Below are positions 1,231 to 44,133 of a stretch of 48,321 nucleotides of DNA, piece after piece. The translations under genes were made by a program, and so were the position numbers. This DNA is from a virus. The stretch covers positions 1 through 48,321 of IMG/VR virus record IMGVR_UViG_3300027881_000020; one strand, 5' to 3'. Every line of letters begins with the position of its first letter. The first letter of the stretch is position 1. The notes beneath the pieces are model-generated. The model searched no databases. It was not told the DNA's origin and worked only from the letters and a program-made list of their open reading frames with translations.

Positions 1231-1476
1231 ATGTCTCACTTTTACGGAACTTTGAAGGGAAATAGAGGAGCAGCCACAAGATGCGGAAGCAAGGATTCAG
1301 GAATGGAAACTTATTGCGCTTCTTGGAATGGTGCAGTTAGATGCTATGTGTGGTATGATGAGATTAAAGGAAAAGACATGGTAAGAGTTGAACAAGTTTC
1401 ATGGCGAGGATATGGAGAATATAGGATTCTCTATGAAGGAGAAATGGGTAAACTCGGAAAATTACCAAAAGTTTAA
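1231..1476 (+). CDS. Conserved phage-type protein of the MSHFYG family (81 aa)
   Basis: The ATG at 1231 follows AAAGGAAGTGA, so I prefer it to the in-frame GTG at 1222. The sequence MSHFYGTLKGNRGAATRCG with SGMETYCASWNGAVRCY is, from memory, typical of a small uncharacterised protein found in many tailed phages. The role is unknown. Its presence in an archaeal-looking virus shows exchange with, or deep sharing among, tailed viruses. It ends in a GAAA-tetraloop hairpin. Confidence 0.75.
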   Translation: MSHFYGTLKGNRGAATRCGSKDSGMETYCASWNGAVRCYVWYDEIKGKDMVRVEQVSWRGYGEYRILYEGEMGKLGKLPKV

Positions 1477-1491
1477 GGGCGAAAGCCCTTA
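1474..1491 (+). other. GAAA-tetraloop hairpin
   Basis: TAAGGGC-GAAA-GCCCTTA: a seven-base-pair stem closed by a GNRA tetraloop and starting at the stop codon of the preceding gene. It separates the MSHFYG gene from the Ubl operon and could stabilise or end the upstream mRNA. Confidence 0.6.
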
Positions 1492-1527: not shown

Positions 1528-1863
1528 ATGAATAAAGAGAATTTGGACGAACATAACCAACAAGCAATTTTGGACGAATTATGCTTACCGAAAGGTATTG
1601 ATGAGGGAAAAGGTGAAGATATGACAGGTGCAAATTCAGGAAGTGACAAGCCCGTTATAGTGCATCTTGGTGTAATGGGTAATGGAGTCAAGAAACAGTG
1701 CGTTAAGGTTGGTTCGACGATTGAAGAGCTTTTAGAACAAGCCGAAGTCGAGCCAGATTCTTCTGCAACGATTAGACTTAATGGCACAGTGACAAATAGC
1801 AACGCAAAGATAAGCAGTGACAATTCAGTAGTGACAATTACTTCAGCAGTTAATGGGGGGTAA
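1528..1863 (+). CDS. Ubiquitin-like beta-grasp protein ending in Gly-Gly
   Basis: The 111-residue product has about 30 polar N-terminal residues, then a compact beta-grasp-like domain (PVIVHLGVMGNGVKKQ, a GSTIEELLEQA helix, a strand with IRLNG, last strand VVTITSAVNGG). It ends exactly at Gly110-Gly111, the mature tail that E1 enzymes adenylate in ubiquitin, ThiS and MoaD proteins. No processing is needed. E2-like, JAB and E1 genes follow at once. An internal ATG at 1621 with a GGTGA site five bases upstream would give an 80-residue version without the extension, closer to the usual domain size. It could instead be a sulfur carrier, but an E2-like neighbour argues for protein conjugation. Confidence 0.82.
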   Translation: MNKENLDEHNQQAILDELCLPKGIDEGKGEDMTGANSGSDKPVIVHLGVMGNGVKKQCVKVGSTIEELLEQAEVEPDSSATIRLNGTVTNSNAKISSDNSVVTITSAVNGG

Positions 1864-1870
1864 AACCCCC
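1855..1870 (+). other. G5/C5 hairpin at the Ubl stop codon
   Basis: GGGGG-TAAAA-CCCCC spans the Gly-Gly codons and the stop of the Ubl gene, followed by ATTTTATTTT. This resembles an intrinsic terminator or a translational attenuator between Ubl and E2. It could set Ubl at a higher level than the enzymes. Confidence 0.5.
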
Positions 1871-1891
1871 ATTTTATTTTAAGGAGATATT

Positions 1892-2863
1892 ATGGATTTA
1901 GAGATAGTTAATAATGAGGGAATGAGTGAAGAGGTATATGATTATTTGACTAACACGATTATAAACGTCAAGAATAAGGATTTTAAAGGGGTTGTTGTGA
2001 ACTCAAGCCCTATGCCTTACATAGAGGATTCTGGAACTATCGTTATATGCTTTGGTGATGTTCCAGATAGTGAAGGGTGGACTGAATTAACCATAGGACG
2101 TAAAAGAGAAATCGTGGCATATTTTAGGAATCCTTATGTTTTGATTAGAAGGGAATATCTTACCAGGAAGATAGATAAGCATGTGGAGAGTGTGATGAAA
2201 TCAATACTTTTAATTGTTTCTAAGATGAAGAGAGCAAAGCCTAAAATCAGTATTCGCAAAACAGCATCTGAAATCAAAGACCTTATATACAATTCAATGG
2301 ACAAAGAAATGGAAGCGAAGGAAGTTAAGATAGGAACATATAAGAGAGAAGTAAAGAATATGTCCGACAATCTACATGATTATACCAATGAAGTATGCTC
2401 TTTGGTCAAACAGAGAAATATGTTGAAGAAGAGCATAGCCAAAGCTAAAGCCAATGATAGAGGTGGATATACCAGTAAGGTTAAAGGCATAATGAATATA
2501 GAAGGTGTAAGGACAATTTGTGTTGTGGACGGACTAATAACAATAATCACAGAGCCATTAACCGCCATAGTCCAAGAAGGTGGTGATGTTGTGGGAAGGA
2601 TATATGTAGGTTCATTTAGAATAACATGGGGTGTAGGTCAAGGGATAAGAATAAGGAATCTGGAAAAAAGGTCAAGTTACAATTACGACCACCCACATAT
2701 TAGTGACGGTCAGCCATGTTGGGGTAATATGGACGAAATAGAGAAATTGGCAGCCAATATGGAGATAGAGGTTGCGGTGTCCATGATGATAAGTTACCTA
2801 AAATCAGTAAGCATGGGTGATGAGCATGAGGATTGGGAAGATTGGAGAGATAATTGGAGGTGA
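1892..2863 (+). CDS. E2-like (UBC-fold) conjugating protein with long N-terminal extension
   Basis: The 323-residue product starts after AAGGAGATATT. The C-terminal third carries HPHISDGQPCWGN, with His267, His269 and Cys276; HPH followed about seven residues later by Cys-Trp/Leu-Gly is the active-site signature I know from prokaryotic E2-like proteins of Ubl operons. Residues about 100-190 are Lys/Glu-rich and probably coiled coil. The first 100 residues are globular and unknown. The predicted role is to take the Ubl from E1 onto Cys276 and pass it to a target. The gene lies between Ubl and JAB; the JAB ribosome binding site lies over its stop. Confidence 0.75.
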   Translation: MDLEIVNNEGMSEEVYDYLTNTIINVKNKDFKGVVVNSSPMPYIEDSGTIVICFGDVPDSEGWTELTIGRKREIVAYFRNPYVLIRREYLTRKIDKHVESVMKSILLIVSKMKRAKPKISIRKTASEIKDLIYNSMDKEMEAKEVKIGTYKREVKNMSDNLHDYTNEVCSLVKQRNMLKKSIAKAKANDRGGYTSKVKGIMNIEGVRTICVVDGLITIITEPLTAIVQEGGDVVGRIYVGSFRITWGVGQGIRIRNLEKRSSYNYDHPHISDGQPCWGNMDEIEKLAANMEIEVAVSMMISYLKSVSMGDEHEDWEDWRDNWR

Positions 2864-2867
2864 GATA

Positions 2868-3536
2868 ATGGAGATAACATTACCAGGCAACGATATTCAG
2901 CATGAAGTGATAATAACCAAAGATGTCTATGATAAAATATTAGCCATATCAGAAGTCATGGGTGACAATGAAGCAGGTGGATTATTGATTTGCGACGAAA
3001 CAATAAATGGAACAATAATTGTTGAAGACATAATAATACCCAAGCAAATTGCGTCAGGTGGTGATGTCACAATAACTGCTGAAGATGTAGCCAAGACGTT
3101 AGAGGGATTCATAACAACGAATCCAGAAATGTGGGAAAAATGCAGAGGTTGGTGGCATAGTCATGGTGGAATGGAAGCCTTCTGGTCGATAACAGATACA
3201 GATAACATTAAAAATTTGATGAAGATGTTTACACCTGTCTTATCAATAGTGACAAATTCAGTTGGACAGATGATTGTAAGGATTGACGGCAACACAAAAG
3301 ACGGAAAGCAATTTACAATAGACGGATTAATTCCAACCATAGACAATGCGCTATCAGAAGCGAAGAAATGGGCAGCCGAACAAAGCAAGAATGTGGAAAT
3401 ATCACAGATTTGGAAGAAATCGAAATGGTGGAATACAAAGAAAACGATAAGCAATATCCAGGCAGATGAAGATAGGATAGCAGATGAAGGCGAGGGATTT
3501 TATAAAGATAGTTTCGGGATATACTATGGATACTAA
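2868..3536 (+). CDS. JAB/JAMM metalloprotease (Ubl deconjugase)
   Basis: The ATG at 2868 follows GGAGGTGA, so I prefer it over upstream in-frame starts. The 222-residue protein has the whole JAMM set: Glu35 (NEAGGLL), then His97-Ser-His99, seven residues, Ser107 and Asp110 (HSHGGMEAFWSITD). These bind the zinc and the catalytic water in MPN+ isopeptidases. The tail after residue 165 is basic and Trp-rich and not part of the domain. In a Ubl-E2-E1 operon its likely job is removing Ubl from targets; the Ubl already ends in Gly-Gly, so maturation is not needed. Confidence 0.88.
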   Translation: MEITLPGNDIQHEVIITKDVYDKILAISEVMGDNEAGGLLICDETINGTIIVEDIIIPKQIASGGDVTITAEDVAKTLEGFITTNPEMWEKCRGWWHSHGGMEAFWSITDTDNIKNLMKMFTPVLSIVTNSVGQMIVRIDGNTKDGKQFTIDGLIPTIDNALSEAKKWAAEQSKNVEISQIWKKSKWWNTKKTISNIQADEDRIADEGEGFYKDSFGIYYGY

Positions 3537-4206
3537 GGTGGACTATTGGAGACAGTTAGGGATAATAAACCCCGCCGACCACCAAAAAGAAAGCATAGCT
3601 ATAATTGGTGCGGGTTCTATTGGTTCAGCGACAGCCCTTTGTCTTGCAAAGGTGGGGTTTAAAAGGATAACAGTGTGGGATTCAGATAAGATAGAAAAGC
3701 ACAATCTCCCTAATCAATTATATCCATTAGATAGTGTCGGACAATTAAAGGTGGAAGCGTTAGCTGATATGGTTGCATATATGACTGGCACTAGTATAAC
3801 CATTATGCCATTTATGTTTGAAGAAAAGTATGTATGGACTGAAACGATAGTTATAGCTGCAACTGACAGCATGGAGAGCCGTAAGATGATATGGAAGACG
3901 GTTAAATTCAAGCCCAATATCAAGCTATACATAGATGCACGAATGGGTGGGCAGCTAATGAGGGTATTCACAGTCAACCCTATGTCAGCTAATGAGTGTA
4001 AGAGGTATGAAGAATCTCTATATACAGATGAGCAATCAATAGATGAACCATGCAGCGAGAAGAGCATAGCATATAACATATTTGGCATAGCTTCAATCAT
4101 TACGAATCAGGTTAAGAAGAGATTGAAAGAAGAGCATCTATATAATGAGATAGACTTCGATTATGTAACCATGATGATAGAGACAGAGGATTGGAATAAA
4201 GATTAA
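3526..4206 (+). CDS. E1-like ThiF/MoeB-family Ubl-activating enzyme
   Basis: The 226-residue form from ATG 3526 begins just before the family's usual YxRQxGI start; an ATG at 3484 would add 14 residues. It shows the ATP-binding GAGSIG (28-33), the DSDKIEKHNLPNQ segment (52-64), Lys75 and the catalytic Asp114 (ATDSMESRK). Candidate thioester cysteines are Cys158 and Cys176 (EPCSEKS). It is single-domain, like ThiF/MoeB, and lacks the CxxC zinc pairs. Its job is to adenylate the Ubl C-terminal glycine with ATP. It overlaps JAB by 11 bases and closes the operon. Confidence 0.88.
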   Translation: MDTKVDYWRQLGIINPADHQKESIAIIGAGSIGSATALCLAKVGFKRITVWDSDKIEKHNLPNQLYPLDSVGQLKVEALADMVAYMTGTSITIMPFMFEEKYVWTETIVIAATDSMESRKMIWKTVKFKPNIKLYIDARMGGQLMRVFTVNPMSANECKRYEESLYTDEQSIDEPCSEKSIAYNIFGIASIITNQVKKRLKEEHLYNEIDFDYVTMMIETEDWNKD

Positions 4207-4420: not shown

Positions 4421-4552
4421 ATGCAATACTTTGTAACCTTAACCAAATCTGTATTTGTTAGAGCAAAAAACGAATTAAAGGCGAGAGACAAAGCAATAGA
4501 TTTATTTGACGCTAATATGTGTGAATCCACCATGGAAGTTGAGGAGGATTAA
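4421..4552 (+). CDS. Small hypothetical protein (43 aa)
   Basis: It starts immediately after the preceding stop. The product MQYFVTLTKSVFVRAKNELK... looks like a beta strand pair followed by a helix, with an acidic end. Its 3' end carries GAGGAGGA for the next gene. Function unknown. Confidence 0.5.
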   Translation: MQYFVTLTKSVFVRAKNELKARDKAIDLFDANMCESTMEVEED

Positions 4553-4735
4553 ATGAGCTATTCAATAGACATAGTACAGAGAATTAGAGCCATAATTGAA
4601 AAGAAGCACAAAATCAAATTAGATGAAGAGACAATAGAAGCTATGGAAGAGATAATAGACATAGTTTTCGAGGACATGGAAATGAAGGCAGATATGGCTA
4701 TGCGTTATCCTGAAACAGATATATTAAACCTTTAA
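4553..4735 (+). CDS. Small acidic helical protein (60 aa)
   Basis: A strong GAGGAGGA site sits just upstream and the start abuts the previous stop. The product is almost entirely predicted helix, with many Ile/Glu/Met residues (IRAIIEKKHKIKLDEETIEA). It may be a small protein-protein interaction module. No family recognised. Confidence 0.6.
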   Translation: MSYSIDIVQRIRAIIEKKHKIKLDEETIEAMEEIIDIVFEDMEMKADMAMRYPETDILNL

Positions 4736-4751
4736 GGCGAAAGGACGGTTC

Positions 4752-4886
4752 ATGCTAAGTTTTCTCATGGCAAACGCTATGGCAAAGTCTCTGGCGCAAG
4801 GGGAAAGCTATGAGTTTTGTAGGCATGTGGGGTGTAGATTTTCACTCGTTCGTTCCCGTCGATTTAGAGGTTTAAGGAATCCTTAA
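4752..4886 (+). CDS. Doubtful small ORF (44 aa)
   Basis: An open frame from ATG 4752 to the TAA just before the next gene, in a stretch that otherwise holds only a CCTTT/AAAGG hairpin. The product has two Cys (EFCRHVGCRF) and a basic end. Base composition is richer in G and C than the neighbours, and no good ribosome binding site is seen. It could equally be an untranslated leader. Confidence 0.25.
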   Translation: MLSFLMANAMAKSLAQGESYEFCRHVGCRFSLVRSRRFRGLRNP

Positions 4887-5306
4887 ATGAAGTGTATAAT
4901 GAGAGTATATGGTCTTACAGATAAAAAGGTATCTGGACTATTGTTTAAAGTCGAGAATGACGATAGAAAAGTAGACATATCTTTCAAATTCGACCCAAGC
5001 GTTTATAATGACTTATTAAAGGGAATCCAAAGAAATATGTTAGTTGAAGTCCAAGAGGGTGTTATCGTTTCAGCGAATGTCATAGATGACAAGATAAACC
5101 CGAACTTTGTGGCTCTATTGAACCCTATGCAGATAATAGAAATCATATTAAAAAGTAAAAAGGTAAAAAAGAAACAAACTTTTTACAAGAAATATTGTGA
5201 ATTAGCTAAATGTTGTCAAAAGACAGCACAAACACACTTACAGAGAGCAATTAGCGACGGTGTAGTTATAGAAGAGGACTATTATACTATCAAATTAAGG
5301 GGGTAA
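4887..5306 (+). CDS. Possible winged-helix DNA-binding protein (139 aa)
   Basis: The first 90 residues look like a beta-rich domain (RVYGLTDKKVSGLLFKVEND). The last 50 form a basic helical segment (KKKQTFYKKYCELAKCC, then QKTAQTHLQRAISDGVV) that reads like a helix-turn-helix with a closing hairpin. It may regulate early transcription. The HTH assignment is mine from the pattern only. Two bases separate it from the next gene. Confidence 0.5.
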   Translation: MKCIMRVYGLTDKKVSGLLFKVENDDRKVDISFKFDPSVYNDLLKGIQRNMLVEVQEGVIVSANVIDDKINPNFVALLNPMQIIEIILKSKKVKKKQTFYKKYCELAKCCQKTAQTHLQRAISDGVVIEEDYYTIKLRG

Positions 5307-5308
5307 TT

Positions 5309-5722
5309 ATGAAATTTAAGATAGGAGATAGAGTTAAGATAGCAAGTGATTTAGAAGAGGATAAATTCGATGTCGTTGAGGGCATGTTAAAACTCGCAGG
5401 TAAGACAGCAATAGTAACAAAAATAACAGGAGAAGAAGGTTACTATCTGGACATAGATAAAGGGCGATGGTATTGGAACGAGGAAATACTTAGCAGACCG
5501 AATGGAAGACCACGAAAGGAAGTGCCAACAGAGTATTTTGTTGTTGTAGATGACGATATGGAAGAGATAGCTTCAAACACTGTGTTTCTAACTGAAGAAT
5601 CAGCAATAGAACAAGCAAAGGTGATATTAGAGAACAACAATGAAGACCCAATAGTATGCAAGTTAATCCAAGTGAAGAAAGTGTTTAACAAGCAAGTAGT
5701 TGAGAAGATAAAGGGAGAGTAA
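5309..5722 (+). CDS. Small protein with KOW/SH3-like N-terminal domain (137 aa)
   Basis: The product begins MKFKIGDRVKIASDLEED and continues to LAGKTAIVTKITG and GYYLDIDKGRWYWNEE, the pattern of an SH3/KOW-like barrel common in phage proteins. A linker rich in Pro/Arg (RPNGRPRKEVP) leads to a second alpha/beta part (EYFVVVDDDMEEIAS). It has a GGGGG-type ribosome binding site and ends in a terminator-like hairpin. Role unknown. Confidence 0.6.
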   Translation: MKFKIGDRVKIASDLEEDKFDVVEGMLKLAGKTAIVTKITGEEGYYLDIDKGRWYWNEEILSRPNGRPRKEVPTEYFVVVDDDMEEIASNTVFLTEESAIEQAKVILENNNEDPIVCKLIQVKKVFNKQVVEKIKGE

Positions 5723-5730: not shown

Positions 5731-5755
5731 CTTTATATTTATGGGGGTGCAAGAC

Positions 5756-5950
5756 ATGACAGATATGAACACATGCGATAAATGCGGGATAAGGGAATGT
5801 ACCCATGCTTTAGTTTGGATTGATGCAGAGGATTTTGAACCATTAAAGCGTGATAAATTCAAAGATAATAAATATAGGAAGGCATTAAAAAAAGGATATT
5901 CTGCATTATGTGAGAAATGTTACCAAGAGGAATGTTGTTATGAAGCCTAA
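5756..5950 (+). CDS. Zinc-ribbon protein (64 aa)
   Basis: Two CxxC pairs (CDKCG near the start, CEKC near the end) suggest one bound zinc; extra Cys and His (ECTH, ECCYEA) are present. I chose ATG 5756, seven bases after GGGGGTG; an in-frame ATG lies at 5741. The middle is rich in Lys. It overlaps the next zinc protein by 11 bases. Probable nucleic-acid or protein-binding miniprotein. Confidence 0.6.
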   Translation: MTDMNTCDKCGIRECTHALVWIDAEDFEPLKRDKFKDNKYRKALKKGYSALCEKCYQEECCYEA

Positions 5951-8186: not shown

Positions 8187-8399
8187 ATGGAAGAAGAAAT
8201 ATGCCATTGTTTTCAATGTGATTGGATTGACGAAATTGTCACTATCCACGGAACAAAAGAAACCTGGGATGATGTCAAATTACTTGAAATCACAAATCAA
8301 GGAATTGTAATAAAGGAAACAGAAAGAGAAGGCACAGGAAAATTGTTCATTCCTTGGAACACTATACACAGTATTTGGAAGGAGGATTTAAAATGTTAG
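8187..8399 (+). CDS. Small Cys-containing protein (70 aa)
   Basis: It starts after TTAGGAGGAATT. An N-terminal CHCFQC cluster and an acidic body with beta strands (GIVIKETEREGTGKLFIPW) are visible; the end (NTIHSIWKED) resembles the surface-exposed strand of an LSM/SH3-like fold. The stop overlaps the next gene. Function unknown. Confidence 0.55.
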   Translation: MEEEICHCFQCDWIDEIVTIHGTKETWDDVKLLEITNQGIVIKETEREGTGKLFIPWNTIHSIWKEDLKC

Positions 8400-8530
8400 A
8401 TAAACAATGTAGATTTTGTAAAGAGCTATACGGAGAGAAGGATAAGAGTCCATTGGACGAGATATGCAACAAATGTTATCTTTTAGTAAGGGAATGTACC
8501 CAAGGTGGGCTTAAGATGAGGGACGGATAG
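8393..8530 (+). CDS. Zinc-ribbon miniprotein (45 aa)
   Basis: CRFC and CNKC pairs lie about 20 residues apart with one more Cys behind them, which is a ribbon-type zinc site. A GGAGGA site lies upstream and the gene overlaps the preceding one. Typical of this early cluster. Confidence 0.55.
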   Translation: MLDKQCRFCKELYGEKDKSPLDEICNKCYLLVRECTQGGLKMRDG

Positions 8531-8531
8531 A

Positions 8532-8771
8532 ATGGCTGATAGAATATATGATAGGGAATTGGAATGTGGTTGTCTCATTTCTACGGATGGTGGTGGTGGA
8601 CTCATGCCATGTCATTATGGGTATGGTTGTGGAAAGTCTGGTTGTAATGAAAAGAATGAATGTGATGAATGTAAGAAGCAAGTACAACGCTGTCAAAAGG
8701 CATGGAATGAATGGCGAAAGACACCCGATTATAAAGAGCATCTTAAAGAGATAAAGGAGAATAATAAATGA
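8532..8771 (+). CDS. Cys-rich small protein (79 aa)
   Basis: Nine cysteines in the first 55 residues (CGC, MPCHYGYGCGKSGCNE, CDECKKQ, QRCQ) imply two zinc sites. The rest is a charged helix. It follows the previous stop by one base and overlaps the next start by four. Function unknown. Confidence 0.55.
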   Translation: MADRIYDRELECGCLISTDGGGGLMPCHYGYGCGKSGCNEKNECDECKKQVQRCQKAWNEWRKTPDYKEHLKEIKENNK

Positions 8772-8998
8772 AGAAGGAAGAGATAGATAGGAAGTTAAGG
8801 AACTTGCATATGGCCTTTGTTGGATATAAGCATAGGATAATGACCATCAAAGACATGACAGCCGAAGAGAAGGATAAGCTCATAGAGGAACAGAGGTTAA
8901 AAATAGAGGCAAAGAAGAAGGAGCTATGCCAATCGAAAAACACATCGTCTGGAGATGTCCAGCTTACAAGTGTACGAAAAAAGGCGAACAAGGTTTAA
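8768..8998 (+). CDS. Small coiled-coil protein (76 aa)
   Basis: The start overlaps the previous stop (ATGA) and AAGGAGA lies upstream. Residues 1-53 are a highly charged helix (Lys/Glu/Arg) likely to form a coiled coil. The last 73 bases overlap the next gene in another frame, so the C-terminal part may be constrained by it. Confidence 0.5.
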   Translation: MKKEEIDRKLRNLHMAFVGYKHRIMTIKDMTAEEKDKLIEEQRLKIEAKKKELCQSKNTSSGDVQLTSVRKKANKV

Positions 8999-9162
8999 GG
9001 TGTCCGAAGCACGACATTCCTTTTGTTCGGACCCTTGAGAAAGAATCATCTACTTTTACAACCATGAGATTCTGGTCTAAAGGTGTCAACCGCAATAAGA
9101 AGAAGAAATTAAGGGACTTCCTTGGACCAAGCAAGACGGATTCTGCACAAGCAACTATTTAG
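8926..9162 (+). CDS. Basic zinc-knuckle protein (78 aa)
   Basis: It starts after AAGAAGGAGCT. The N-terminal segment CPAYKCTKKGEQGLRCPKHD is a C-x4-C / C-x2-H zinc site. The tail is strongly basic (NRNKKKKLRDFLG), suggesting binding to nucleic acid. It overlaps the coiled-coil gene by 73 bases. Confidence 0.55.
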   Translation: MPIEKHIVWRCPAYKCTKKGEQGLRCPKHDIPFVRTLEKESSTFTTMRFWSKGVNRNKKKKLRDFLGPSKTDSAQATI

Positions 9163-9169
9163 AGGAACC

Positions 9170-9760
9170 ATGAAAGTATTGAATTTATATGCTGGTATAG
9201 GTGGAAATAGAAAGCTATGGAAGGATGTAGATGTTGTAGCAATAGAGAACAATCCAAAGATAGCCAAGATGTACCAAGAGTTCTTTCCAAATGATAAAGT
9301 GATTATAACGGATGCTCACCAATATCTTTTAGACCACTTCAACGAGTTTGATTTTATGTGGTCATCACCACCATGCCCCACACATAGTAGAATAAGAAAG
9401 GCGAGGCACGACCAAAACCCACCCATATATCCAAATATGAAGCTCTATGAAGAAATCTTGTTATTGCAAGGATACGCCAAATGTAAATGGGTGGTCGAGA
9501 ACGTAATAAGTTGGTATAAACCGCTAATAATACCACACGATGTTGGAAGACATTATTTTTGGAGCAATTTCCACATATCACCGTTCAAGATAAAAACACG
9601 TGGTCACATGCTTCCAAATAAAGAGTTAATGAAAATAAAAGGATTTGAAGTGAACGATACGACAATATTGAGAAATTGTGTTGAACCAAGGTTAGGATTG
9701 CATGTATTCAATTGTGCCTTCAAAGATAAGCAAACGTATTTAAAGACTACTACCAATTAG
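9170..9760 (+). CDS. C5-cytosine DNA methyltransferase-like protein
   Basis: The ATG at 9170 follows TTTAGAGGAACC. In 196 residues it shows the SAM motif LNLYAGIGGNRKLW, the acidic residue of motif II (AIENNP), the catalytic loop SSPPCPTHSRIR with Cys69 (in place of the usual PPCQ) and the motif VI ENV (WVVENVIS). It would methylate cytosine C5 in DNA, perhaps protecting viral DNA from host nucleases. It is short: the target-recognition domain and motifs IX-X of bacterial Dcm enzymes are reduced. No partner restriction enzyme is beside it. Confidence 0.8.
   Translation: MKVLNLYAGIGGNRKLWKDVDVVAIENNPKIAKMYQEFFPNDKVIITDAHQYLLDHFNEFDFMWSSPPCPTHSRIRKARHDQNPPIYPNMKLYEEILLLQGYAKCKWVVENVISWYKPLIIPHDVGRHYFWSNFHISPFKIKTRGHMLPNKELMKIKGFEVNDTTILRNCVEPRLGLHVFNCAFKDKQTYLKTTTN
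9736..9747 (+). promoter_or_regulatory. Candidate TATA box for the small zinc-ribbon gene
   Basis: CGTATTTAAAGA lies inside the 3' end of the methyltransferase gene, about 25 bases upstream of ATG 9766. The ATG has no ribosome binding site, so a leaderless mRNA is likely. Confidence 0.45.
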
Positions 9761-9765
9761 TTTTT

Positions 9766-9873
9766 ATGATTTTAAAATGCCATAAATGTAGTTATGTCTG
9801 GGATTACCAAGGCAAAAGCAAATATTATGCCACATGCCCACAATGTCTACGAAAAGCCAAGGTAACAAATTGA
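9766..9873 (+). CDS. Archaeal-type zinc-ribbon DNA-binding miniprotein (35 aa)
   Basis: The product has CHKCSYVWDYQGKSKYY followed by CPQCLRK. From memory this pattern (C-x2-C, W-x-YxGxSxxYATCPxC) is common in archaeal chromosomes as a tiny DNA-binding ribbon, and it is one reason to place the host in the Archaea. It lies between the methyltransferase and the main late promoter, so it could act in late transcription. Confidence 0.7.
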   Translation: MILKCHKCSYVWDYQGKSKYYATCPQCLRKAKVTN

Positions 9874-9874
9874 C

Positions 9875-9908
9875 GAAACATTTAAATAGTTGTTACGCAT
9901 TACTTAAA
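9875..9908 (+). promoter_or_regulatory. Late promoter of the virion operon
   Basis: GAAACATTTAAATAG is a BRE plus TATA box; it runs on into GTTGTTAC. The 14-base core TAAATAGTTGTTAC (9883-9896) recurs almost exactly at 20066 and 29891, each time before a new block of late genes. TTAAAG just before the start also matches the copy at 20.09 kb. The portal ATG lies about 30 bases from the TATA box with no binding site, so a leaderless mRNA is expected. Confidence 0.7.
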
Positions 9909-9913
9909 GATGA

Positions 9914-11260
9914 ATGGCAATATTAGATTTCTTTAGGACAAAGAATTATTCACTTAAGAGCAAATCTATTTCTGAGAAACCAAGAACATTAAAGGAAGCT
10001 ATCGGGAGATTGACCCCACAGTATGGTTTTAATGCCGAAGTGAAGGACAAAGAGAACGAATGGACTGTTCCACATTTGGATAAGAACTTCAAACTCTATG
10101 AGGATATTTATACATCCATACCAGTGGCTAAGAACGCGGTAGACAACCTTTCTAATTTCGCAATCCAGAGTGGCTATGAGTTGGATGGTGGAAGTGTGAC
10201 TACAATTGAGAAATTTGTAGACACACACAATTTTGAACAGCTCATGTTGAATGTGTTAAGGCAAATGATTATCTACGGTAACGCTTATCTTGAGTTGGAT
10301 GTCAAAGGAGCAGAAATAAGCTCAATGAAGCTCCTTCCACCAAGCCAGATGTATGTGGTGGTAGCTAAAGGTGGGGGAAATGACGGTCAACTCATCAAAT
10401 ACCGACAGGTTCTTGGAACACAAAAGCAAATAGATTTTAAATTAGAACAGATAGCTCATTTCAAATGGAATGAGATTGGTCCTGCTTTTTATGGTTACTC
10501 AGATTTAAAGGCAATCCAAGGAGCATTGACAAGTCTTTTGAACTATCAGGCAGACTTGGGTGAGGTAGTTCACAGGTATGGTCATCCGACCATGCATCAC
10601 AAGCTTGGAACAGATGACAGTCCAGCAAGTGGTCCTCAAATAGAGGAATACATCGACATGATTGAAGGGAGGGAACCTGGACAGGACATCATAACATCCA
10701 CAGCAGTCGAGCTTAAATCCATATCCTCTGACTTGAGGATGGTGCAGCCCGATGGTTTGATTAAGCACATGGAGAACCAGCTCATAGCAGGGTTAGGTGT
10801 TCCAGAGATATTCATTAGAGGTGGGGAGACCTCAAACAAAGCAACCGCAGACATAGAGCTTCAGGCTTTCGATAGGAAGGTAAAGGCACTTAGGAATGCC
10901 ATGACTGAAGTGATTCACGACAAGATATTCAGCGTCTATGGCGACACCAAAATCAAGTGGCGTGAGATGAGCATACAGGAAGAGGGAGTCAAGGGTGAGA
11001 TGGTGAAGAACTTGAACCAAGCAGGAGTTCCACCCGAGGTGGCATTCAAGATAGTAGGATGGGATAACTTCATCAACGACCTAATGGACAGTGAGAATTA
11101 CCCACCACCTGAACCAACCATTGGATTCGGTGGACCGCCAGGCATGGGACCTCCCAAACCAAATGGGAAGCCCAAGCCACCTAAAGAAGATGCCTTTGAT
11201 ACACAGGCTGATTGGTTGAAGGCTATGGTCAAATACAATAGGATTAATGATGGGTTATGA
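9914..11260 (+). CDS. Portal protein
   Basis: The 448-residue product has the layout of HK97/SPP1-type portals: SIPVAKNAVDNLSNFAIQSG, then IYGNAYLEL with LLPPSQM, a stretch ending in HFKWNEIGPAFYGYSDLKA, and the long helix region with GLGVPEIFIRGG and ELQAFDRKVKALR. Twelve copies would form the ring through which DNA enters and leaves the head. The C-terminus is a Pro/Gly-rich tail with DTQADWLKAM, repeated in the next protein. It is the first gene after the late promoter, followed by protease and capsid genes, the normal order. Confidence 0.9.
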   Translation: MAILDFFRTKNYSLKSKSISEKPRTLKEAIGRLTPQYGFNAEVKDKENEWTVPHLDKNFKLYEDIYTSIPVAKNAVDNLSNFAIQSGYELDGGSVTTIEKFVDTHNFEQLMLNVLRQMIIYGNAYLELDVKGAEISSMKLLPPSQMYVVVAKGGGNDGQLIKYRQVLGTQKQIDFKLEQIAHFKWNEIGPAFYGYSDLKAIQGALTSLLNYQADLGEVVHRYGHPTMHHKLGTDDSPASGPQIEEYIDMIEGREPGQDIITSTAVELKSISSDLRMVQPDGLIKHMENQLIAGLGVPEIFIRGGETSNKATADIELQAFDRKVKALRNAMTEVIHDKIFSVYGDTKIKWREMSIQEEGVKGEMVKNLNQAGVPPEVAFKIVGWDNFINDLMDSENYPPPEPTIGFGGPPGMGPPKPNGKPKPPKEDAFDTQADWLKAMVKYNRINDGL

Positions 11261-13206: not shown

Positions 13207-14052
13207 ATGCAAACACTAAGAGAGACCCTTTTATCAACGGACATTGAGCTTGAGATAATCCCAACCAAGATTTTAGGAAAAGTGATTGAAGCAGCAAGAA
13301 AGAAACTTTTTGCTACACAGCTTCTTGGACTAAGGCTTGGACCACAGGATATTCCAGGCAGCAAAGTCACAGTAATATTACAAACAGTTGATACCATTTC
13401 TATTAATAAGGTATCAGAAGGTGCGGAAGTACCAGTTGACGTTGAACAGTATTCAAGCTTCGACCTCACACCAGTTAAATATGGAGTGAGACCCGTCATT
13501 ACAAAGGAGATGATTGAGGACGCAGCTTTCGGAGTCGTTGAGAGGAACATCGAGTACGCAGGATACAAGATGGCCGAGAAGTTGGATGCTTTGATATTAA
13601 AAGAGATAGAGACAGGTGCGGATGCAAACACTACGGGACATATGGTTTCAGGTGGTGCAGCAATAACAATAGCAAATATCGCAGCAGGAATGCTATTCTT
13701 GGAAGCGGATGGTTACAGACCAACTGATTTCATAATAGGACCAGAGATAGCTAGTGACATTCGACAGATAGATACATTTGTCGAGGCAGACAAGGCAGGA
13801 GTTACGAATCCAAGCAAGTCATTGATTGGAACAATCTATGGCATGAAGGTTTGGGTGAGCAGGAATGTCAACAATGTCGAATACGCATACATAATCGACA
13901 GGGATTGGGCACTATGTCTTGCAGAGAAGAGACCGATAACCATGGAGAGGTACGACGACGTTACAAAGGACCTTACTGGAATCGTTTTCACAGCAAGATG
14001 GCATGCACGATACTTGAGAATGGAAGCGTGTGCGCACATTGAGTGTAGTTAA
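13207..14052 (+). CDS. Major capsid protein (HK97 fold)
   Basis: The 281-residue protein follows the decoration protein. Typical parts are the N-terminal helix region (LETLL-like start), VPVDVEQYSSFDLTPVKYG with RPVITKEMIEDA (E-loop to spine helix), ERNIEYAGYKMAEKLDALIL, DFIIGPEIASDIRQ, GTIYGMKVWVSRNV and the closing TARWHARYLRMEACAHIE. It has no long N-terminal delta domain, in line with the separate scaffold on the protease. It should be the most abundant virion protein. Confidence 0.88.
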   Translation: MQTLRETLLSTDIELEIIPTKILGKVIEAARKKLFATQLLGLRLGPQDIPGSKVTVILQTVDTISINKVSEGAEVPVDVEQYSSFDLTPVKYGVRPVITKEMIEDAAFGVVERNIEYAGYKMAEKLDALILKEIETGADANTTGHMVSGGAAITIANIAAGMLFLEADGYRPTDFIIGPEIASDIRQIDTFVEADKAGVTNPSKSLIGTIYGMKVWVSRNVNNVEYAYIIDRDWALCLAEKRPITMERYDDVTKDLTGIVFTARWHARYLRMEACAHIECS

Positions 14053-32424: not shown

Positions 32425-32870
32425 AATGTCCAACAACTGGTTCGATTGCAAGTGGATTGGGATTTAGAGAAAGAGTTTGCGATACGATAGATAGGTTTAA
32501 CTTTCCCGAAGACATTAAGGATGATGCCAAGAGGATTTCCTTTGACCTTCCACAGAAGCATACTGCCAAGAAGACAGCAGTAATATCACTATTCTTATCA
32601 TCTCAACTGAATGCGTTTGACTTCAGGAAGCGATTGGCTGAGACAATCAAGATATATAATGATGATGATTTCTTTGCGGTCGTGGAGAATGGACCGTCAA
32701 TTCGGATGTTCCTATCCAGAATAAAAAGGGATGCAACTGGTTTTGAATATGATTTCTCAATACTTGAGAGGATGCATAAGAAACTAGAGGACACTTCTAG
32801 CAACACCGAAAGTCAAAGCGGGTCCTTGCTTCTTAGCAGCCCAGATACCCAAAGCCAAGGCGGTAGCTAA
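32421..32870 (+). CDS. Helical protein, possibly cyclin-fold-like; tail overlaps terL (149 aa)
   Basis: It overlaps the preceding stop. The core (RERVCDTIDRFNFPEDIKDD, AKKTAVISLFLSSQLNAFDF) resembles one cyclin repeat of archaeal transcription factor B, with CPTTGS at the start. This likeness is weak. The last 24 residues are Ser/Gln-rich low complexity encoded opposite the terminase C-terminus; the genes converge and share 87 bases. It may act in viral transcription, or be unrelated. Confidence 0.5.
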   Translation: MKCPTTGSIASGLGFRERVCDTIDRFNFPEDIKDDAKRISFDLPQKHTAKKTAVISLFLSSQLNAFDFRKRLAETIKIYNDDDFFAVVENGPSIRMFLSRIKRDATGFEYDFSILERMHKKLEDTSSNTESQSGSLLLSSPDTQSQGGS

Positions 32871-33950
32871 ATCGTCGTGACCATACTTGGGATGTGATAT
32901 GCGTGTTATTGTATCTGCCTTTCTTTCTCCTTTCAACTCAACTAACTGTTTTTTCAGCTTGTCATTCTTACCCAGTATTATTTGCTCCGCCTCGATTAGC
33001 CTTTTTAAATTGAAGAACAGGTCTTGTTTCGTCTTGATGGAGAACCTGAATGCCTCATTAGGGAGCATTTCCAATATTATTCCCTCACCCATGCCTGTGG
33101 AATCGTAGACTATGTTCTTGAATCCCCATTCTTTGTGAAGCTCTTCTATTATCTTGACCTGTTGTGGGATGGTCCTTCCTATATAGGAATAGAATCGTGC
33201 GACTGAGAATGGTGTGGTATCAATCATCTTGTTGAACTTCGGTCTATATTCTATTACACATGCAGCAGCCTCATCCTTCCCCACAGTGGCAGGGTCATAT
33301 CCCAAGAAGTATTCATAGATGGGTTCAGGTCTAGTTCTATAATTATCCTTTAGCATGCACTTATCGACATCTGCTGGTCGGAAGAGCAAGTCAGCAGTAT
33401 CTATGAACGCACCGAGATATTCCTCTCTCCACTCTATCTCACTCATGGAGTCTCTCGCTATCTCTATCTCTTCCTTGCTTGCAAGCGGGTTTGCCTCTGT
33501 GACGAAATGGTGCTTGGCGAACTTGTATTTGGAGTCATGGAAGTATTTGAAGAACATGTTGTTGCATCCATTGGGTGTTCCGATGACCATTAATATCCCA
33601 TCGGTGGTGACAAGCATCGGACGGATGACAGCATAGACCTCATCCTCGATATGTCCACCCTCATCTATGATGACAAGATTTGCGGTGAATCCTCTAAGGT
33701 TGTCACCACTTCCAGCAGCAGGTAGGCTATATATAGCAGAGTCATTATCGAACTCTATGACAGTCTGTGTCTCTCTTATGATGGTATCCCTAAGTCTAAG
33801 GTCTTTCTTCTCAAAGGAGGATTTCGTTAAAAGGCTCTTCATTCTTCTAAATAGGATGTTGCTTGCTCTCTGCGTTGGGCTAATAATAAGTACAGTTACG
33901 CCATCATGCATCACAGCATACCATAAGCCCTTAATAGCAGCCATCTCGGT
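32784..33950 (-). CDS. terL: Large terminase subunit, C-terminal part (Walker B to nuclease)
   Basis: Read from ACC-GAG at 33950, this frame gives TEMAAIKGLWYAVM and on through the ATPase (LIISPTQRAS, Walker B LVIIDEGG, coupling motif MLVTTDGILMVIGTPNG) and an RNase-H-like nuclease (YFLGYDPATVGKDEA, VYDSTGMGEG, HDDLATALALG). It packages DNA into the head. The Walker A lysine is missing here and lies on the segment at 34034-34153, across an 83-nt insertion. An ATG at 33944 could start a version without Walker A, unlikely to work alone. It lies far from the portal on the other strand. Confidence 0.88.
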   Translation of the reverse strand, partial: TEMAAIKGLWYAVMHDGVTVLIISPTQRASNILFRRMKSLLTKSSFEKKDLRLRDTIIRETQTVIEFDNDSAIYSLPAAGSGDNLRGFTANLVIIDEGGHIEDEVYAVIRPMLVTTDGILMVIGTPNGCNNMFFKYFHDSKYKFAKHHFVTEANPLASKEEIEIARDSMSEIEWREEYLGAFIDTADLLFRPADVDKCMLKDNYRTRPEPIYEYFLGYDPATVGKDEAAACVIEYRPKFNKMIDTTPFSVARFYSYIGRTIPQQVKIIEELHKEWGFKNIVYDSTGMGEGIILEMLPNEAFRFSIKTKQDLFFNLKRLIEAEQIILGKNDKLKKQLVELKGERKADTITRISHPKYGHDDLATALALGIWAAKKQGPALTFGVARSVL

Positions 33951-34625: not shown

Positions 34626-35651
34626 TCACTGAACTAATAAATCTATACATTTTATTGCCTTCTCTGCTCCCTTATCCCAAGTCCATTCCTCAATGTTTGG
34701 GTACTTCTTGATTTCATATCTTTCAATATACATGCTTCTAAGTGCAGCTTTAAGGTCTACCAAGTATGGTCGCTTCCAATTACCATTGTCCCATGGGCTA
34801 AACTTGGCGGGTACGAAATTGCTTTCCAACTTCCATACCCTATCACCATTGAGGTAATCAACCTGACCACCCCATGAGTTGTGTATTATCGGCAACCCAC
34901 AAGCCATTGCCTCAAGCGTTCCCATATCAAAGCCTTCACCAGCACTTGGGCAAACATAACAGTCTGCGGTATTGAATATCTGAACCATCTCTTCTTCCGT
35001 GTAGAAATCGGTGTCAACGACAGTTCCTCTACCTTCGAGTTCCTTTGATGCATCACCATAGCTTGTATTGATTTTCAAATGAAGCAAGACCTTCGCATCT
35101 TTAATCTCGTCCTTGAACTCTTCCCTATAAGCTCTCACTAAAAGGTCTGCACCCTTTCTGTCACCTTCACCAGTATATCCGCCATTGAATAGGAACTTGA
35201 AGTATGGTTTGGAATCTCTATGTTGCATTGTATATATTGGAGTATAACCATGCGGAACTATATGTATCTTTTCGGAAATCACATTATTCGCCAACAAGTT
35301 ATCCCGAACATGTTTGCTTGGGACCCAGATTTGTGCGATTCTATCCAGATTCATGTCACGAACTGCACTTTCTGGGAACCTCGTTGACTCAAGCACAAAA
35401 TTGGCTATAATATGGTGTTCCCCGTTGAATCTGAAGGGGTTATCGAAGTAGACTCGCCCGAATACTACGTCCTGCTTGCGCAGTTTGGGCATACCCCCCA
35501 ACAATAGGGTATAAATCCTATCAGGAAGATAGCCTCTCTGAACAAAATCAACACATTTAACAGATGTCTTCTTTGACATGGCGAAAGCTAACTCTCGGAC
35601 TGCCTTCGAGTAACCACTAAATCCCCTGACATTATCTATCGTATAGAACAT
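34626..35651 (-). CDS. GT4-family glycosyltransferase (341 aa)
   Basis: It has the GT-B pattern: an N-terminal acceptor domain (RGFSGYSKAVRELAFAMSKK), then FLFNGGYTGEGDRKGADLLV, VCPSAGEGFDMGTLEAMACG and PIIHNSWGGQVDY, where the EGFxxxxLEAMA motif binds the sugar nucleotide. It would move a sugar from a nucleotide donor to a glycan in the cytoplasm. It is the last gene of the glycan island, read just before the terL group; a 123-base gap without a clear gene separates the two. Confidence 0.85.
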   Translation of the reverse strand: MFYTIDNVRGFSGYSKAVRELAFAMSKKTSVKCVDFVQRGYLPDRIYTLLLGGMPKLRKQDVVFGRVYFDNPFRFNGEHHIIANFVLESTRFPESAVRDMNLDRIAQIWVPSKHVRDNLLANNVISEKIHIVPHGYTPIYTMQHRDSKPYFKFLFNGGYTGEGDRKGADLLVRAYREEFKDEIKDAKVLLHLKINTSYGDASKELEGRGTVVDTDFYTEEEMVQIFNTADCYVCPSAGEGFDMGTLEAMACGLPIIHNSWGGQVDYLNGDRVWKLESNFVPAKFSPWDNGNWKRPYLVDLKAALRSMYIERYEIKKYPNIEEWTWDKGAEKAIKCIDLLVQ

Positions 35652-35846
35652 TCATCCCACATAGCTCATGTCTTTCTTCCCTGGATAATATTTGTCATTG
35701 ATAACCCAAAGATTCTGTTGCAATACATCGGCAATTAGGGCGGTCGCTGTTTCGACAGCCAAATCTCCTATATCTATTTCATAGACTTCTATTTCTTCTT
35801 TCTTGAATCTCCATTTGAGTCTTATAGTCCCTTGTGCATTAGTCAT
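35652..35846 (-). CDS. Small alpha/beta protein (64 aa)
   Basis: I chose ATG 35846, which overlaps the previous stop by ATGA, over ATG 35861. The product begins MTNAQGTIRLKWRFKKEEIE and ends in a Tyr/Lys tail. It is coupled on both sides (its stop touches the GT4 start). Function unknown. Confidence 0.5.
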   Translation of the reverse strand: MTNAQGTIRLKWRFKKEEIEVYEIDIGDLAVETATALIADVLQQNLWVINDKYYPGKKDMSYVG

Positions 35847-36085
35847 TTTGTTTTCCACCATCCTTCATCATAATCCCCTTTATACGCCCTAAGTGCGCTT
35901 CCCATCCTATTAGCTAAAACACCAGCTTCTCTCGTTCTTAATTTTATTTGTTCTTTAAGCCAATCGTTTTCAATATCATCTGCTGTTCTATGAATATCTC
36001 GCAATACCTCACATATAGTCCAACGGGGATTTATTATCGTCATGTCTATTTTGTCCGATTCTTCTTTTGATACTGGTCTGACCAT
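35843..36085 (-). CDS. Conserved small helical protein (80 aa)
   Basis: ATG 36085 follows AGGAGG at a good distance but overlaps the glycosyltransferase by 40 bases; ATG 36043, just past that gene's stop, is the alternative. The core (INPRWTICEVLRDIHRTADD then LRTREAGVLANRMGSALRA) is helical. No function known. Confidence 0.55.
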   Translation of the reverse strand: MVRPVSKEESDKIDMTIINPRWTICEVLRDIHRTADDIENDWLKEQIKLRTREAGVLANRMGSALRAYKGDYDEGWWKTK

Positions 36086-36843
36086 TCTTTCATCCTCCTT
36101 TTGAATTTCGTGATATTCTTAGTTCGCATGTCCTTTGTCTCATCCCGTGTTCCACCAACGGGAGCCATCACATGCCAACAAACCGCATCGGGCACAATGA
36201 AAAGCTGGTGTCCCATGATTTTCATTCGATGCACGAAATCAGTCTCTTCCCTATATCCTGTCTTCCCATAGCATTCGGCACAGCGAATCTTCTTGCCAAT
36301 CTCGTTGCGAAATATGAATGAACTCCTTATGTCATCAGATTCAATGGGTATATCGGTGTTATAAAAATAACATTGGTCTGCCTCACCATCCAAATCAAAG
36401 AACTCTGTGATGGCATTCATCTTCTCGGGAGGTTCCCTATATATCTTCTCGTTTGATAGGACTGGAACCAATCCACCAACCGCAGCAATACTATCGGTTA
36501 GGTTTATCAAATCATATAGTTTTTCCAGATAATCGGGTTCGCAGATGCTATCGTCATCAATCCTACAACCGAACTCGCAGTCGCACATGTCCATGGCAGC
36601 GTTCCTTAAGACACCAGTATCCCTCGTATCGGGCATGTGCTTGTATATGATGCGATGCCCTTCCCAGTTGATGCGGGTCAAAAGCGAACTGCATAGATGG
36701 TCATTGGAGATGGGATTGGTGGAGTTGTCCACCAGGAACAAATCCCATTCCTTTTTGGTTTGCCTTAGAAGCGAGGTGAGTAATGCTGCTAAGTATGATT
36801 GCCTATCCCTTGTTATTATCTGAATTCCTATCCTTTTAAACAT
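36046..36843 (-). CDS. GT2-family glycosyltransferase (265 aa)
   Basis: A GT-A fold enzyme: start RIGIQIITRDRQSYLAALLT, then DLFLVDNSTNP, RNAAMDMCDCEFGCRIDDDS with the metal-binding DDD, and a C-terminal ETDFVHRMKIMGHQLFIVP, the catalytic ED-like region. It transfers sugars from UDP- or GDP-donors. It overlaps the radical SAM gene upstream by 16 bases. Confidence 0.82.
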   Translation of the reverse strand: MFKRIGIQIITRDRQSYLAALLTSLLRQTKKEWDLFLVDNSTNPISNDHLCSSLLTRINWEGHRIIYKHMPDTRDTGVLRNAAMDMCDCEFGCRIDDDSICEPDYLEKLYDLINLTDSIAAVGGLVPVLSNEKIYREPPEKMNAITEFFDLDGEADQCYFYNTDIPIESDDIRSSFIFRNEIGKKIRCAECYGKTGYREETDFVHRMKIMGHQLFIVPDAVCWHVMAPVGGTRDETKDMRTKNITKFKRRMKEWSDQYQKKNRTK

Positions 36844-38105
36844 TCTATCTCATCCCTCAAGCGTACAATATTTTCGGCAGTCAGTTCATCCGTCCTCACA
36901 GGACTCACATACTTTCCAGGCTTTCCCTTATAGAAATGACTTCCCTTTGAGAAATCATCCCTGTTAAAATAAAGGCCATTGTATTTAAATAAGTATTCCT
37001 TGAACTTAGTGGATTTCACTGCATCGTCATATATTTGCGAACCAGGATAAGGATTCATTATCGTTATATCGAAATCATCGGGATTTACTCTCTCAATCCA
37101 ATCCTTTGTCAAATTGACATCTCCTTCAGTCTCACCAGGAAGTCCTATTATGAGGAATGATTTATGTCGGAATCCAGCTTTCATTATCATCTTGGCTGCC
37201 TTCATGTTGATGTCATAAGTGGTGTGCTTGTTAATAGCCTCCAGCATCCTATCGGAACCAGACTCCGCACCACTACACACCTCGACGAATCCACACTTCT
37301 CCAGATAGTCCAATGTCTCTGGATGTTTTACAATCAAATCGTTCCGCACGAATCCCCGATGGATATAGCCTCTATTCTTAAGGAGTTGTGCGAATTCCTT
37401 CAACCTTGGTGGGTTTATGTTAATCTCATCATCGAACCACATGAATGCATTATAACCAAAAGTGTCGTTAAGATAATCCATCTCTCTCACGACATCCGCA
37501 GGTTCCCGTTGCCTTGAAATCCTATACATTTCTATATCCCTTCCACAACAGAATCGGCAGTTAAATGGACAGCCTCTTTGTGTCATTATGTTTGTTGCCC
37601 CTCTTCCATTTATCTCATACTTATAAGATGACATATTGTAATGCATCCTATCAGGTATTGGTAATTCATTCACATCTATAATCGGCATCTTGACCCATTT
37701 CTCAGTATATATGTCTTTAAATAATTCGCCTTCTCCTTCGACGATGACATCAAACTTCTCCAATCGCTTTGTGTTTATATCGGTTATTCCTCTTCTTCGT
37801 AGAGCCGATATTGCTGTCGCATGAGGTCCACCGATTATGGTCCTAATACCATATCTCTTAAGAATCTTGTTCATCTCGTAAATATAGTAGAACTGTGCTG
37901 TCGTTCCAGTAAACATGACCGTATCATAATCAGGATGAAGGTCCCATATTATACACTCTATCTTGGTTTTCCAGTTGGGAATCCCAGACAAATCAACGAC
38001 TTCAGAGTTTTCCCATGTACTTGCAAGATAGAGTGGTGCGAGGGTGGGGAACACCCTCTCATTCATCAGAAACGGACTTGGCGGATTTATTATATAATTG
38101 GTCAT
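36828..38105 (-). CDS. B12-binding-type radical SAM enzyme (425 aa)
   Basis: The start follows GAGGGAGATGT. The N-terminal part (NPPSPFLMNERVFPTLAPLY, then FTGTTAQFYYIYEMNKILK and GGPHATA) is a cobalamin-binding-like domain. The middle has the iron-sulfur motif CPFNCRFC and a radical SAM barrel (FDDEINI, GAESGSDRMLEAINK, IGLPGETEGD). Such enzymes methylate or rearrange unactivated carbons. Between glycan genes it may modify a sugar or lipid; the substrate cannot be told. It is rare in viruses. Confidence 0.82.
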   Translation of the reverse strand: MTNYIINPPSPFLMNERVFPTLAPLYLASTWENSEVVDLSGIPNWKTKIECIIWDLHPDYDTVMFTGTTAQFYYIYEMNKILKRYGIRTIIGGPHATAISALRRRGITDINTKRLEKFDVIVEGEGELFKDIYTEKWVKMPIIDVNELPIPDRMHYNMSSYKYEINGRGATNIMTQRGCPFNCRFCCGRDIEMYRISRQREPADVVREMDYLNDTFGYNAFMWFDDEININPPRLKEFAQLLKNRGYIHRGFVRNDLIVKHPETLDYLEKCGFVEVCSGAESGSDRMLEAINKHTTYDINMKAAKMIMKAGFRHKSFLIIGLPGETEGDVNLTKDWIERVNPDDFDITIMNPYPGSQIYDDAVKSTKFKEYLFKYNGLYFNRDDFSKGSHFYKGKPGKYVSPVRTDELTAENIVRLRDEIECLKG

Positions 38106-42960: not shown

Positions 42961-43082
42961 TGACAATACCTCGCTGGGTCAAGTGGCAAGACTATCTTGC
43001 GACCACATTTGGAACAAACAGCGTCCCCTTTACACGCCTGACACTTTACATTTATCACTATATATTTGCTCTTCTTCACCAC
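42957..43082 (-). CDS. Zinc-ribbon miniprotein (41 aa)
   Basis: A GTG start lies seven bases after GAGGTGA and inside the end of the upstream glycosyltransferase gene. The product has CQACKGDAVCSKCGRK, four close cysteines forming one zinc knuckle. Coupled to genes on both sides. Role unknown. Confidence 0.5.
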   Translation of the reverse strand: MVKKSKYIVINVKCQACKGDAVCSKCGRKIVLPLDPARYCQ

Positions 43083-43954: not shown

Positions 43955-44133
43955 TTTTCATGCTCCTTCTTAAGTTTTTCATGTAATCCCGCAATCCCTT
44001 CACTCAAAACATGAGAAATAATAACTAACCATGTAGATACTGACCAATCCTTGGGTCTAAATTTCATATCAATTACTTTAAGTTCACCTTCTTTTGTTAT
44101 TATTCCTTCAATAATATATTTAAATTTGGTCAT
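43951..44133 (-). CDS. Small hypothetical protein (60 aa)
   Basis: The product starts MTKFKYIIEGIITKEGELKV (two strands) and has a helical hydrophobic centre (WLVIISHVLSEGIAGLHEK) with a Lys-rich end. It overlaps both glycosyltransferase genes by four bases, so it is translated with them. No family recognised. Confidence 0.5.
   Translation of the reverse strand: MTKFKYIIEGIITKEGELKVIDMKFRPKDWSVSTWLVIISHVLSEGIAGLHEKLKKEHEK

Follow-up and report, generated by a model that had tools for sequence, protein, structure and literature searches.

To our knowledge, complete prokaryotic systems that unite an E1 enzyme, an E2 enzyme, a ubiquitin-like protein (Ubl) and a deubiquitinase (DUB) come mainly from bacterial defence, with a few archaeal operons. 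The ubiquitin operon of Caldiarchaeum subterraneum encodes CsUb, E1, E2, a small RING protein and CsRpn11. Type II cyclic-oligonucleotide-based anti-phage signalling systems (CBASS), with Cap2/Cap3, have an E2-E1 fusion adjoining a CD-NTase, and conjugation of the small archaeal modifier proteins (SAMPs) and of Urm1 has been reported as E2-independent. Bil, an ISG15-like anti-phage system of bacteria, consists of a Ubl (BilA), an E2 (BilB), a JAB (BilC) and an E1 (BilD); BilA comprises two Ubl domains, the active site of BilB reads CEHH, and BilD combines an inactive and an active adenylation domain with a Cys domain (PMC11354881). Its anti-phage activity works through the tagging of virion proteins, and the JAB is thought to process the Ubl precursor. 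In the type 6d neighbourhoods described by Iyer in 2006, the E2 lacks the upstream His, the JAB begins with an alpha+beta domain, and a helical protein is encoded in addition (PMC1779556). Here we analyse a gene set of this kind in the virus record IMGVR_UViG_3300027881_000020, which was taken whole (48,321 bases, “the window”). At positions 1528-4206 the window has four intact, adjoining genes on the same strand, encoding a Ubl, an E2-like protein, a JAB/JAMM metalloprotease and an E1, in the gene order of Bil (PMC11354881). The genes are spaced by 4-28 bases or overlap and occupy about 2.7 kb (Table 1), in agreement with a preliminary description of this DNA that had reported the four genes in a virus. 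We consider it likely, from the sequences compared below, that this cassette is a self-contained, reversible Ubl-conjugation module and that it represents a distinct family common to prokaryotic viruses and bacterial mobile islands.

Related cassettes in viruses and bacteria

Because the cassette proteins are too diverged for single-protein searches, we scanned IMG/VR with degenerate DNA motifs. A first scan with the E2 motif HPHxxxGxxCWG gave 16 loci, 11 of which encode real E2-like proteins while five are chance matches. E1 lies near E2 in 11/11 of these contigs, JAB is present in every locus whose available stretch extends that far (10 loci), and a small open reading frame (ORF), with GG, SG or HG at its end and 0-5 residues behind that, stands directly 5' of E2 wherever the upstream flank is available. 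A second, independent scan with the E1 motif DARMGAE yielded eight new contigs with the cassette E1 family, and JAB was present in seven, Ubl in five and E2 in four of them. In all, the two scans and profile searches recovered related cassettes in 19 further IMG/VR contigs. Most of the related Ubls end in GG followed by 1-5 residues, with JAB alongside.

The four genes are not always arranged as in the window. Rearranged orders occur in L084, L080, L086 and L088 (E1-Ubl-E2-JAB; E2-JAB-E1-Ubl; and JAB-E1-Ubl, with E2 not detected), and it is therefore the gene set, not the gene order, that is kept.

A tblastn search of phage records with the E1 gave 47 matches, mainly in crAss-like and Flavobacterium phages. 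The three phages that we inspected (Fpv3, cr85_1 and a bajarodcaudo virus) have Ubl-like, E2-like (HSH...C), JAB and “ThiF” genes in the order of the window, amid replication genes. The E2 of this divergent version is more weakly linked to the family (profile P 0.06). The replication genes that surround the cassette in crAss-like phages and in L008/L012 encode a primase, a UDG, an exonuclease and a Sak4-type ATPase. The preliminary description had regarded a viral operon with every step in an archaeal-type tailed virus as new and had proposed a search of archaeal viral contigs for the gene order. In IMG/VR, both motif scans recovered relatives; the set in the window is complete, as had been claimed, but it is no singular case, being widespread in prokaryotic viruses.

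Scanning of genomes revealed bacterial cassettes in one Calditrichaeota and one Anaerolineae metagenome-assembled genome (MAG). In the phylum of the Calditrichaeota MAG the E2 occurs in 10/39 genomes, in up to four copies per genome, and in that of the Anaerolineae MAG in 2/201. All 10 loci inspected in the former phylum have the order Ubl-E2-JAB-E1 and intact motifs; a tyrosine-recombinase-like gene is near seven of the 10, and a sigma54-activator-like regulator is near some. These copies look like mobile islands rather than proviruses. The bacterial E2 had no match in phage or plasmid records. At the Anaerolineae locus L029, E2-JAB-E1-Ubl is preceded by an additional MoeB-like E1 and by an AAA ATPase (4541-5686, 8322-9902).

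Ubl, JAB and E1

All of the residues named in the preliminary description are in place in the four proteins. The Ubl ends in ...VNGG, with Gly110-Gly111 (codons 1855-1860) as its last residues. Its Pfam match to ThiS is weak (0.009), and the profile of the Ubl family matched SAMP2 (2.2e-5) as well as ThiS and TtuB among solved structures. An AlphaFold2 model (predicted local distance difference test, pLDDT, 78) has the beta-grasp fold that structure prediction had been expected to give, and Foldseek matched it at a probability of 1.00 to the beta-grasp group MTH1743/SUMO/MoaD/ISG15/TtuB. The window Ubl is thus a single-domain beta-grasp protein of the ThiS/MoaD/SAMP/ubiquitin type with a C-terminal Gly-Gly.

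The JAB gene starts at an ATG behind a GGAGGTGAG ribosome site. Its product has Glu35 and, at 3156-3197, HSHGGMEAFWSITD, which reads H-x-H-x7-S-x2-D; all metal and catalytic residues are kept, as in the JAB/JAMM signature of predicted isopeptidases, and the catalytic columns are invariant in the family alignment. Pfam assigns the protein to Prok-JAB (8.7e-8), and the solved structures nearest to the family profile are archaeal Rpn11/RPN11 (best, 6.7e-13), with JAMM1 also near. The JAB of a 200 kb viral contig (L007:4537-6657) bears DnaJ-type CxxCxGxG repeats.

For the E1 there are two possible starts, the ATG at 3526 (226 residues, the numbering of the preliminary description) and an in-frame ATG at 3484 that adds 14 residues (240 in total). 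The catalytic Asp (codon 3865-3867) is Asp114 from the first and Asp128 from the second; GAGSIG is encoded at 3607-3624 and a conserved Cys, Cys176 counting from 3526, at 4051-4053. Pfam matched ThiF (3.2e-19). Over their whole length, the cassette E1s can be aligned with MoeB and ThiF of E. coli, with GxGxxG, DxD and the catalytic Lys and Asp kept and with the invariant Cys on the catalytic Cys of MoeB/ThiF, and they lack the Zn CxxC pairs of those two proteins. Compared with the PDB, the family profile matched UBA5, MccB, UBA1, ThiF, Cap2, MoeB and BubCD (best 9.2e-12; BubCD from Citrobacter at 4e-6 only). By these features, the cassette E1 can be placed in the E1/MoeB/ThiF superfamily. In a tree, viral and bacterial cassette E1s cluster together and are separated from MoeB/ThiF (98/97 support). 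The order of viral and bacterial copies inside this group is unresolved, and for that reason we do not claim a direction of transfer.

The E2-like protein

The E2-like protein is composed of an N-terminal domain, a coiled coil and a C-terminal UBC-like domain at about residues 205-323, which contains the predicted active-site motif HPHISDGQPCWGN (2690..2728, +) with HPH and Cys276 (codon 2717-2719). Neither this protein nor 11 family E2 domains had a match in Pfam. Its AlphaFold2 model (pLDDT 82; predicted template-modelling score, pTM, 0.77) was matched by Foldseek to phage proteins in BFVD, among them a CrAss-like virus protein at a probability of 0.96.

We compared the family with UBC by profile alignment with four human UBC proteins. 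In this alignment HPH/HPN and the Cys coincide, and the conserved SYNxxDPY of the family falls on the PNPDDP loop of the E2s. The full family gave P 0.00025, and every shuffle control gave 0/100. Since H, P, H, G, C, W and G are prescribed by the E2 motif scan, their conservation among its loci is no evidence, and for this reason we used the E2s found by profile or through the E1 motif. These sequences gave P 0.0004 (0/100 shuffles), and they still have the Cys and HPH (SPH once). Three of those recovered through the E1 motif bear HPHIRDDQLCEG, HPHIHENGSICWG and HPHVHENGKPCFG, which are near the eukaryotic HPNxxxxGxICL. On its own the E2 assignment is the weakest of the four; the UBC alignment and the linkage of E2, JAB and E1 across the recovered loci argue for it.

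The natural SPH in place of HPH belongs to the L056 E2 and suggests an essential role for the second His rather than the first. In the E2s of L007, L018, L019, L055 and L062, the UBC-like domain is followed by a Cys-rich, Zn-finger-like tail, possibly a built-in E3-like part.

Regulatory elements and genomic context

A terminator-like hairpin marks the junction of the Ubl and E2 genes (Table 1). Its stem holds the Gly-Gly codons, followed by TTTTATTTT; the hairpin also spans the stop codon of the Ubl gene and lies 5' of the E2 ribosome site. Most bacterial copies have a strong hairpin at the corresponding position (z -3.7 to -6.9), as do several viral ones. Across L053-L055, L057-L061, L010, L012 and L019 the position of the hairpin is kept while its sequence is not. 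One possibility is that it acts as an attenuator, so that more Ubl than enzyme is made. A further hairpin (GGGCGAAAGCCC) precedes the cassette and is followed by an AT-rich, TATA-like stretch.

Table 1. Positions of the cassette genes, hairpins and virion genes in the window.
Feature	Position	Strand	Details
Hairpin 5' of the cassette, then AT-rich TATA-like stretch	1474..1491	+	-11.3 kcal/mol, z -3.1
Ubl gene	1528..1863	+	111 residues; beta-grasp about residues 40-111
Terminator-like hairpin between Ubl and E2	1852..1873	+	-14.4 kcal/mol, z -2.6
E2-like gene	1892..2863	+	323 residues
JAB/JAMM metalloprotease gene	2868..3536	+	222 residues
E1 gene, single-domain, MoeB/ThiF type	3526..4206	+	226 residues
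Portal gene	9914..11260	+	phrog_9232 8.1e-30
Major capsid gene, HK97 type	13207..14052	+	
Terminase large subunit gene	32784..33944	-	phrog_2 1.8e-36

The window belongs to a tailed virus with terminase, portal and HK97-type capsid genes. The best match of the terminase is Halogranum tailed virus 1 (30% over 97%, 2e-46), no close relative of it was found in IMG/VR, and nearly every tblastn match of the portal is to a tailed virus of haloarchaea. Genes at 9881, 20064 and 29889 are preceded by TATA promoters of archaeal type (TTTAAATAGTTGTTAC), which are near-identical and read TTTAAATA/TTATATA + GTTGTTAC. Given the nearest relatives of the terminase and portal and the type of these promoters, the host is probably an archaeon. 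No replication genes were seen among the window ORFs listed, and the record may therefore be a fragment of the genome.

The neighbours of the cassette, upstream of the portal gene, are small ORFs of unknown function. Small Cys-rich ORFs 3' of the cassette (5741-5950, 8354-8530 and 8532-8771) might encode separate Zn proteins. After the terminase, the minus strand carries a long stretch of glycosyltransferase-, methyltransferase- and radical SAM-like genes at 34626-45353, which we named by eye from the translations.

Proposed mechanism and alternative explanations

The catalytic residues, the linkage of the genes and their recurrence can be read together in the light of the established chemistry of E1, E2 and JAMM enzymes, and the window cassette is probably functional. 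Using ATP, an E1 homodimer would adenylate Gly111 at the C-terminus of the Ubl and load the Ubl onto the crossover Cys176 of the E1. The Ubl would then move to Cys276 of the E2, which would attach it to a lysine or other nucleophile of the target with no separate E3, and the JAB would remove it from targets. Since the Ubls of most relatives have short tails behind GG, the JAB may also mature them by trimming the 1-5 extra residues, a step that would be unneeded in the window, where GG is the very end of the Ubl. More modifier than enzyme would be produced owing to the hairpin behind the Ubl gene. Our leading guess is that, during infection, the module targets proteins of the host or of rival viruses, as a takeover or as an exclusion akin in function to Bil, and not solely the virion of the virus itself. 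We favour host or rival targets over virion decoration alone because several viral copies have early-gene surroundings and the bacterial islands are defence-like; an early role is argued by the several viral copies that adjoin replication genes.

A number of results weigh against a complete conjugation module of this kind. Single-protein searches with the window E2 and E1 found no match in viral contigs, and tblastn with the window E2 found none in phages. With the motif masked, the E2 family matches UBC at P 0.03 only. The position of MoeB Arg73 is not conserved in the cassette E1s, the Cys-rich tail seen in many relatives is absent from the window E2, and no E3 was found in this analysis. 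Foldseek of the E2 model against the PDB returned no match below E 0.5 and no UBC; of the structure predictions proposed in the preliminary description, that of the Ubl gave a beta-grasp and that of the E2 no significant match to a solved fold. Together with the lack of a Pfam match, this last result fits a reading in which the “E2” is another cassette protein with a chance HPH...C and conjugation is E2-independent, as in SAMPylation. We find that improbable, as the E2s found independently of the motif keep the Cys and the His-Pro-His (or its one variant) and align SYNxxDPY with the UBC loop at the P value given above. It could also be speculated that the Ubl is a sulfur carrier, thiocarboxylated like ThiS, MoaD or TtuB for thiolation of RNA or a cofactor. 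The E1 belongs to the MoeB/ThiF class, and ThiS and TtuB are among the matches of the Ubl profile; however, an E2-like protein belongs to the cassette, the E1s have lost the Zn sites of MoeB/ThiF, and no sulfur-transfer gene was seen adjoining the cassette. The presence of the E2 and the loss of the Zn sites make this role, in our view, improbable.

If conjugation does take place, its use by the virus may differ from our leading guess. Superinfection exclusion in the manner of Bil, in which the viral Ubl is put on structural proteins of competitors and spoils their assembly or infectivity, would be in keeping with a functional set and gene order equal to those of an anti-phage operon (PMC11354881) and with bacterial copies that are multi-copy, patchy cargo of integrase islands. 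On the other hand, the cassette is not homologous in detail to Bil, and PADLOC recognises it with generic E1-E2/JAB models only, neither the Ubl nor the E2 being recognised; we hold this use possible though doubtful. We judge in the same tentative way the possibility that the Ubl serves host takeover or modification of the virus's own virion, with host proteins for replication, transcription or defence, or the proteins of the virus itself, as targets. The position amid replication genes in crAss-like phages and L008/L012 speaks for such a role, but in the window the cassette is flanked by small genes of unknown function, upstream of the portal, and no substrate or adaptor is identifiable. Counter-defence or a decoy role, with the JAB stripping or disrupting a host defence based on Ubl or SAMP and with E1 and E2 as Ubl sinks, appears unlikely: a decoy requires neither the full set nor intact E1 and E2 cysteines, and the virus brings its own Ubl. 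The Borg elements of archaea do carry many JAMM deSAMPylase-like genes with a proposed role in counter-defence; the study that reports them does not describe this cassette (PMC12660748).

Taking the module as likely, we give an even chance to a wider proposal: that a hitherto unrecognised family of complete Ubl-conjugation systems, with an HPH-type E2, a MoeB-like E1 with a conserved Cys and without Zn sites, a single Ubl and a JAB, circulates among tailed archaeal and bacterial viruses and the integrase islands of bacteria, and that viruses use it as a ubiquitin-type weapon of their own against host or rival proteins. A complete Ubl set is a recurring cargo of prokaryotic viruses, labelled “ThiF” in crAss-like phages, and of bacterial mobile islands. 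Two questions become testable in this way, namely whether prokaryotic viruses have ubiquitin-like signalling of their own, and what the age and mobility of the minimal E1-E2-Ubl-DUB set are.

Comparison with known systems

The cassette family is not named as a system by Pfam, PADLOC or NCBIfam, and a literature search of incomplete coverage turned up no report of a virus with a whole Ubl cassette like that of the window. CBASS type II was rejected as an identity, since E2 and E1 are separate in the window and the neighbouring ORFs are small unknowns with no CD-NTase. PRTRC was also rejected: TIGR03736 scored 38.3 bits (cut-off 144.75) and TIGR03735 13.7 (101.8), and NCBIfam gave no other PRTRC match. 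PRTRC/type 6d neighbourhoods likewise have standalone Ubl, JAB, E1-like and E2-like genes; they differ in that the window E2 has HPH and the window JAB motif begins within the first 40 residues. The kinship with PRTRC suggested in the preliminary description is not sustained, with model scores so far under the cut-offs and with these differences in E2 and JAB.

Like Bil, the window has Ubl, E2, JAB (JAMM) and E1 in one operon, and the equal gene order had been noted correctly. Kinship does not follow from it, since three features that define Bil fail: the window Ubl is one beta-grasp domain of 111 residues, as opposed to two in BilA; the histidines of its E2 lie upstream of the Cys (HPH...C), as opposed to CEHH in BilB; and its E1 is a single ThiF domain of 226-240 residues, as opposed to the two adenylation domains and Cys domain of BilD. 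The “ThiF” operons of crAss-like phages and Fipvunavirus share the order Ubl-like, E2-like, JAB, ThiF-E1, while their Ubl has a long tail after SG/SGG and their E2 is only weakly alignable, as noted above.

The Caldiarchaeum operon is likewise a complete set in one archaeal operon, and CsRpn11 is the nearest solved JAB to the window family. In contrast, we identified no RING gene next to the cassette of the window, whose E1 is MoeB-like and whose E2 is too diverged for Pfam UBC. The SAMP/Urm1-Uba4 systems and UBA5 resemble the cassette in that its Ubl is nearest to SAMP2 and ThiS, its E1 is nearest to the UBA5-type minimal kind, and the E1 Cys is in the MoeB-like position. It differs from SAMP and Urm1 in that an E2-like gene is a constant partner in the viral and bacterial cassettes.

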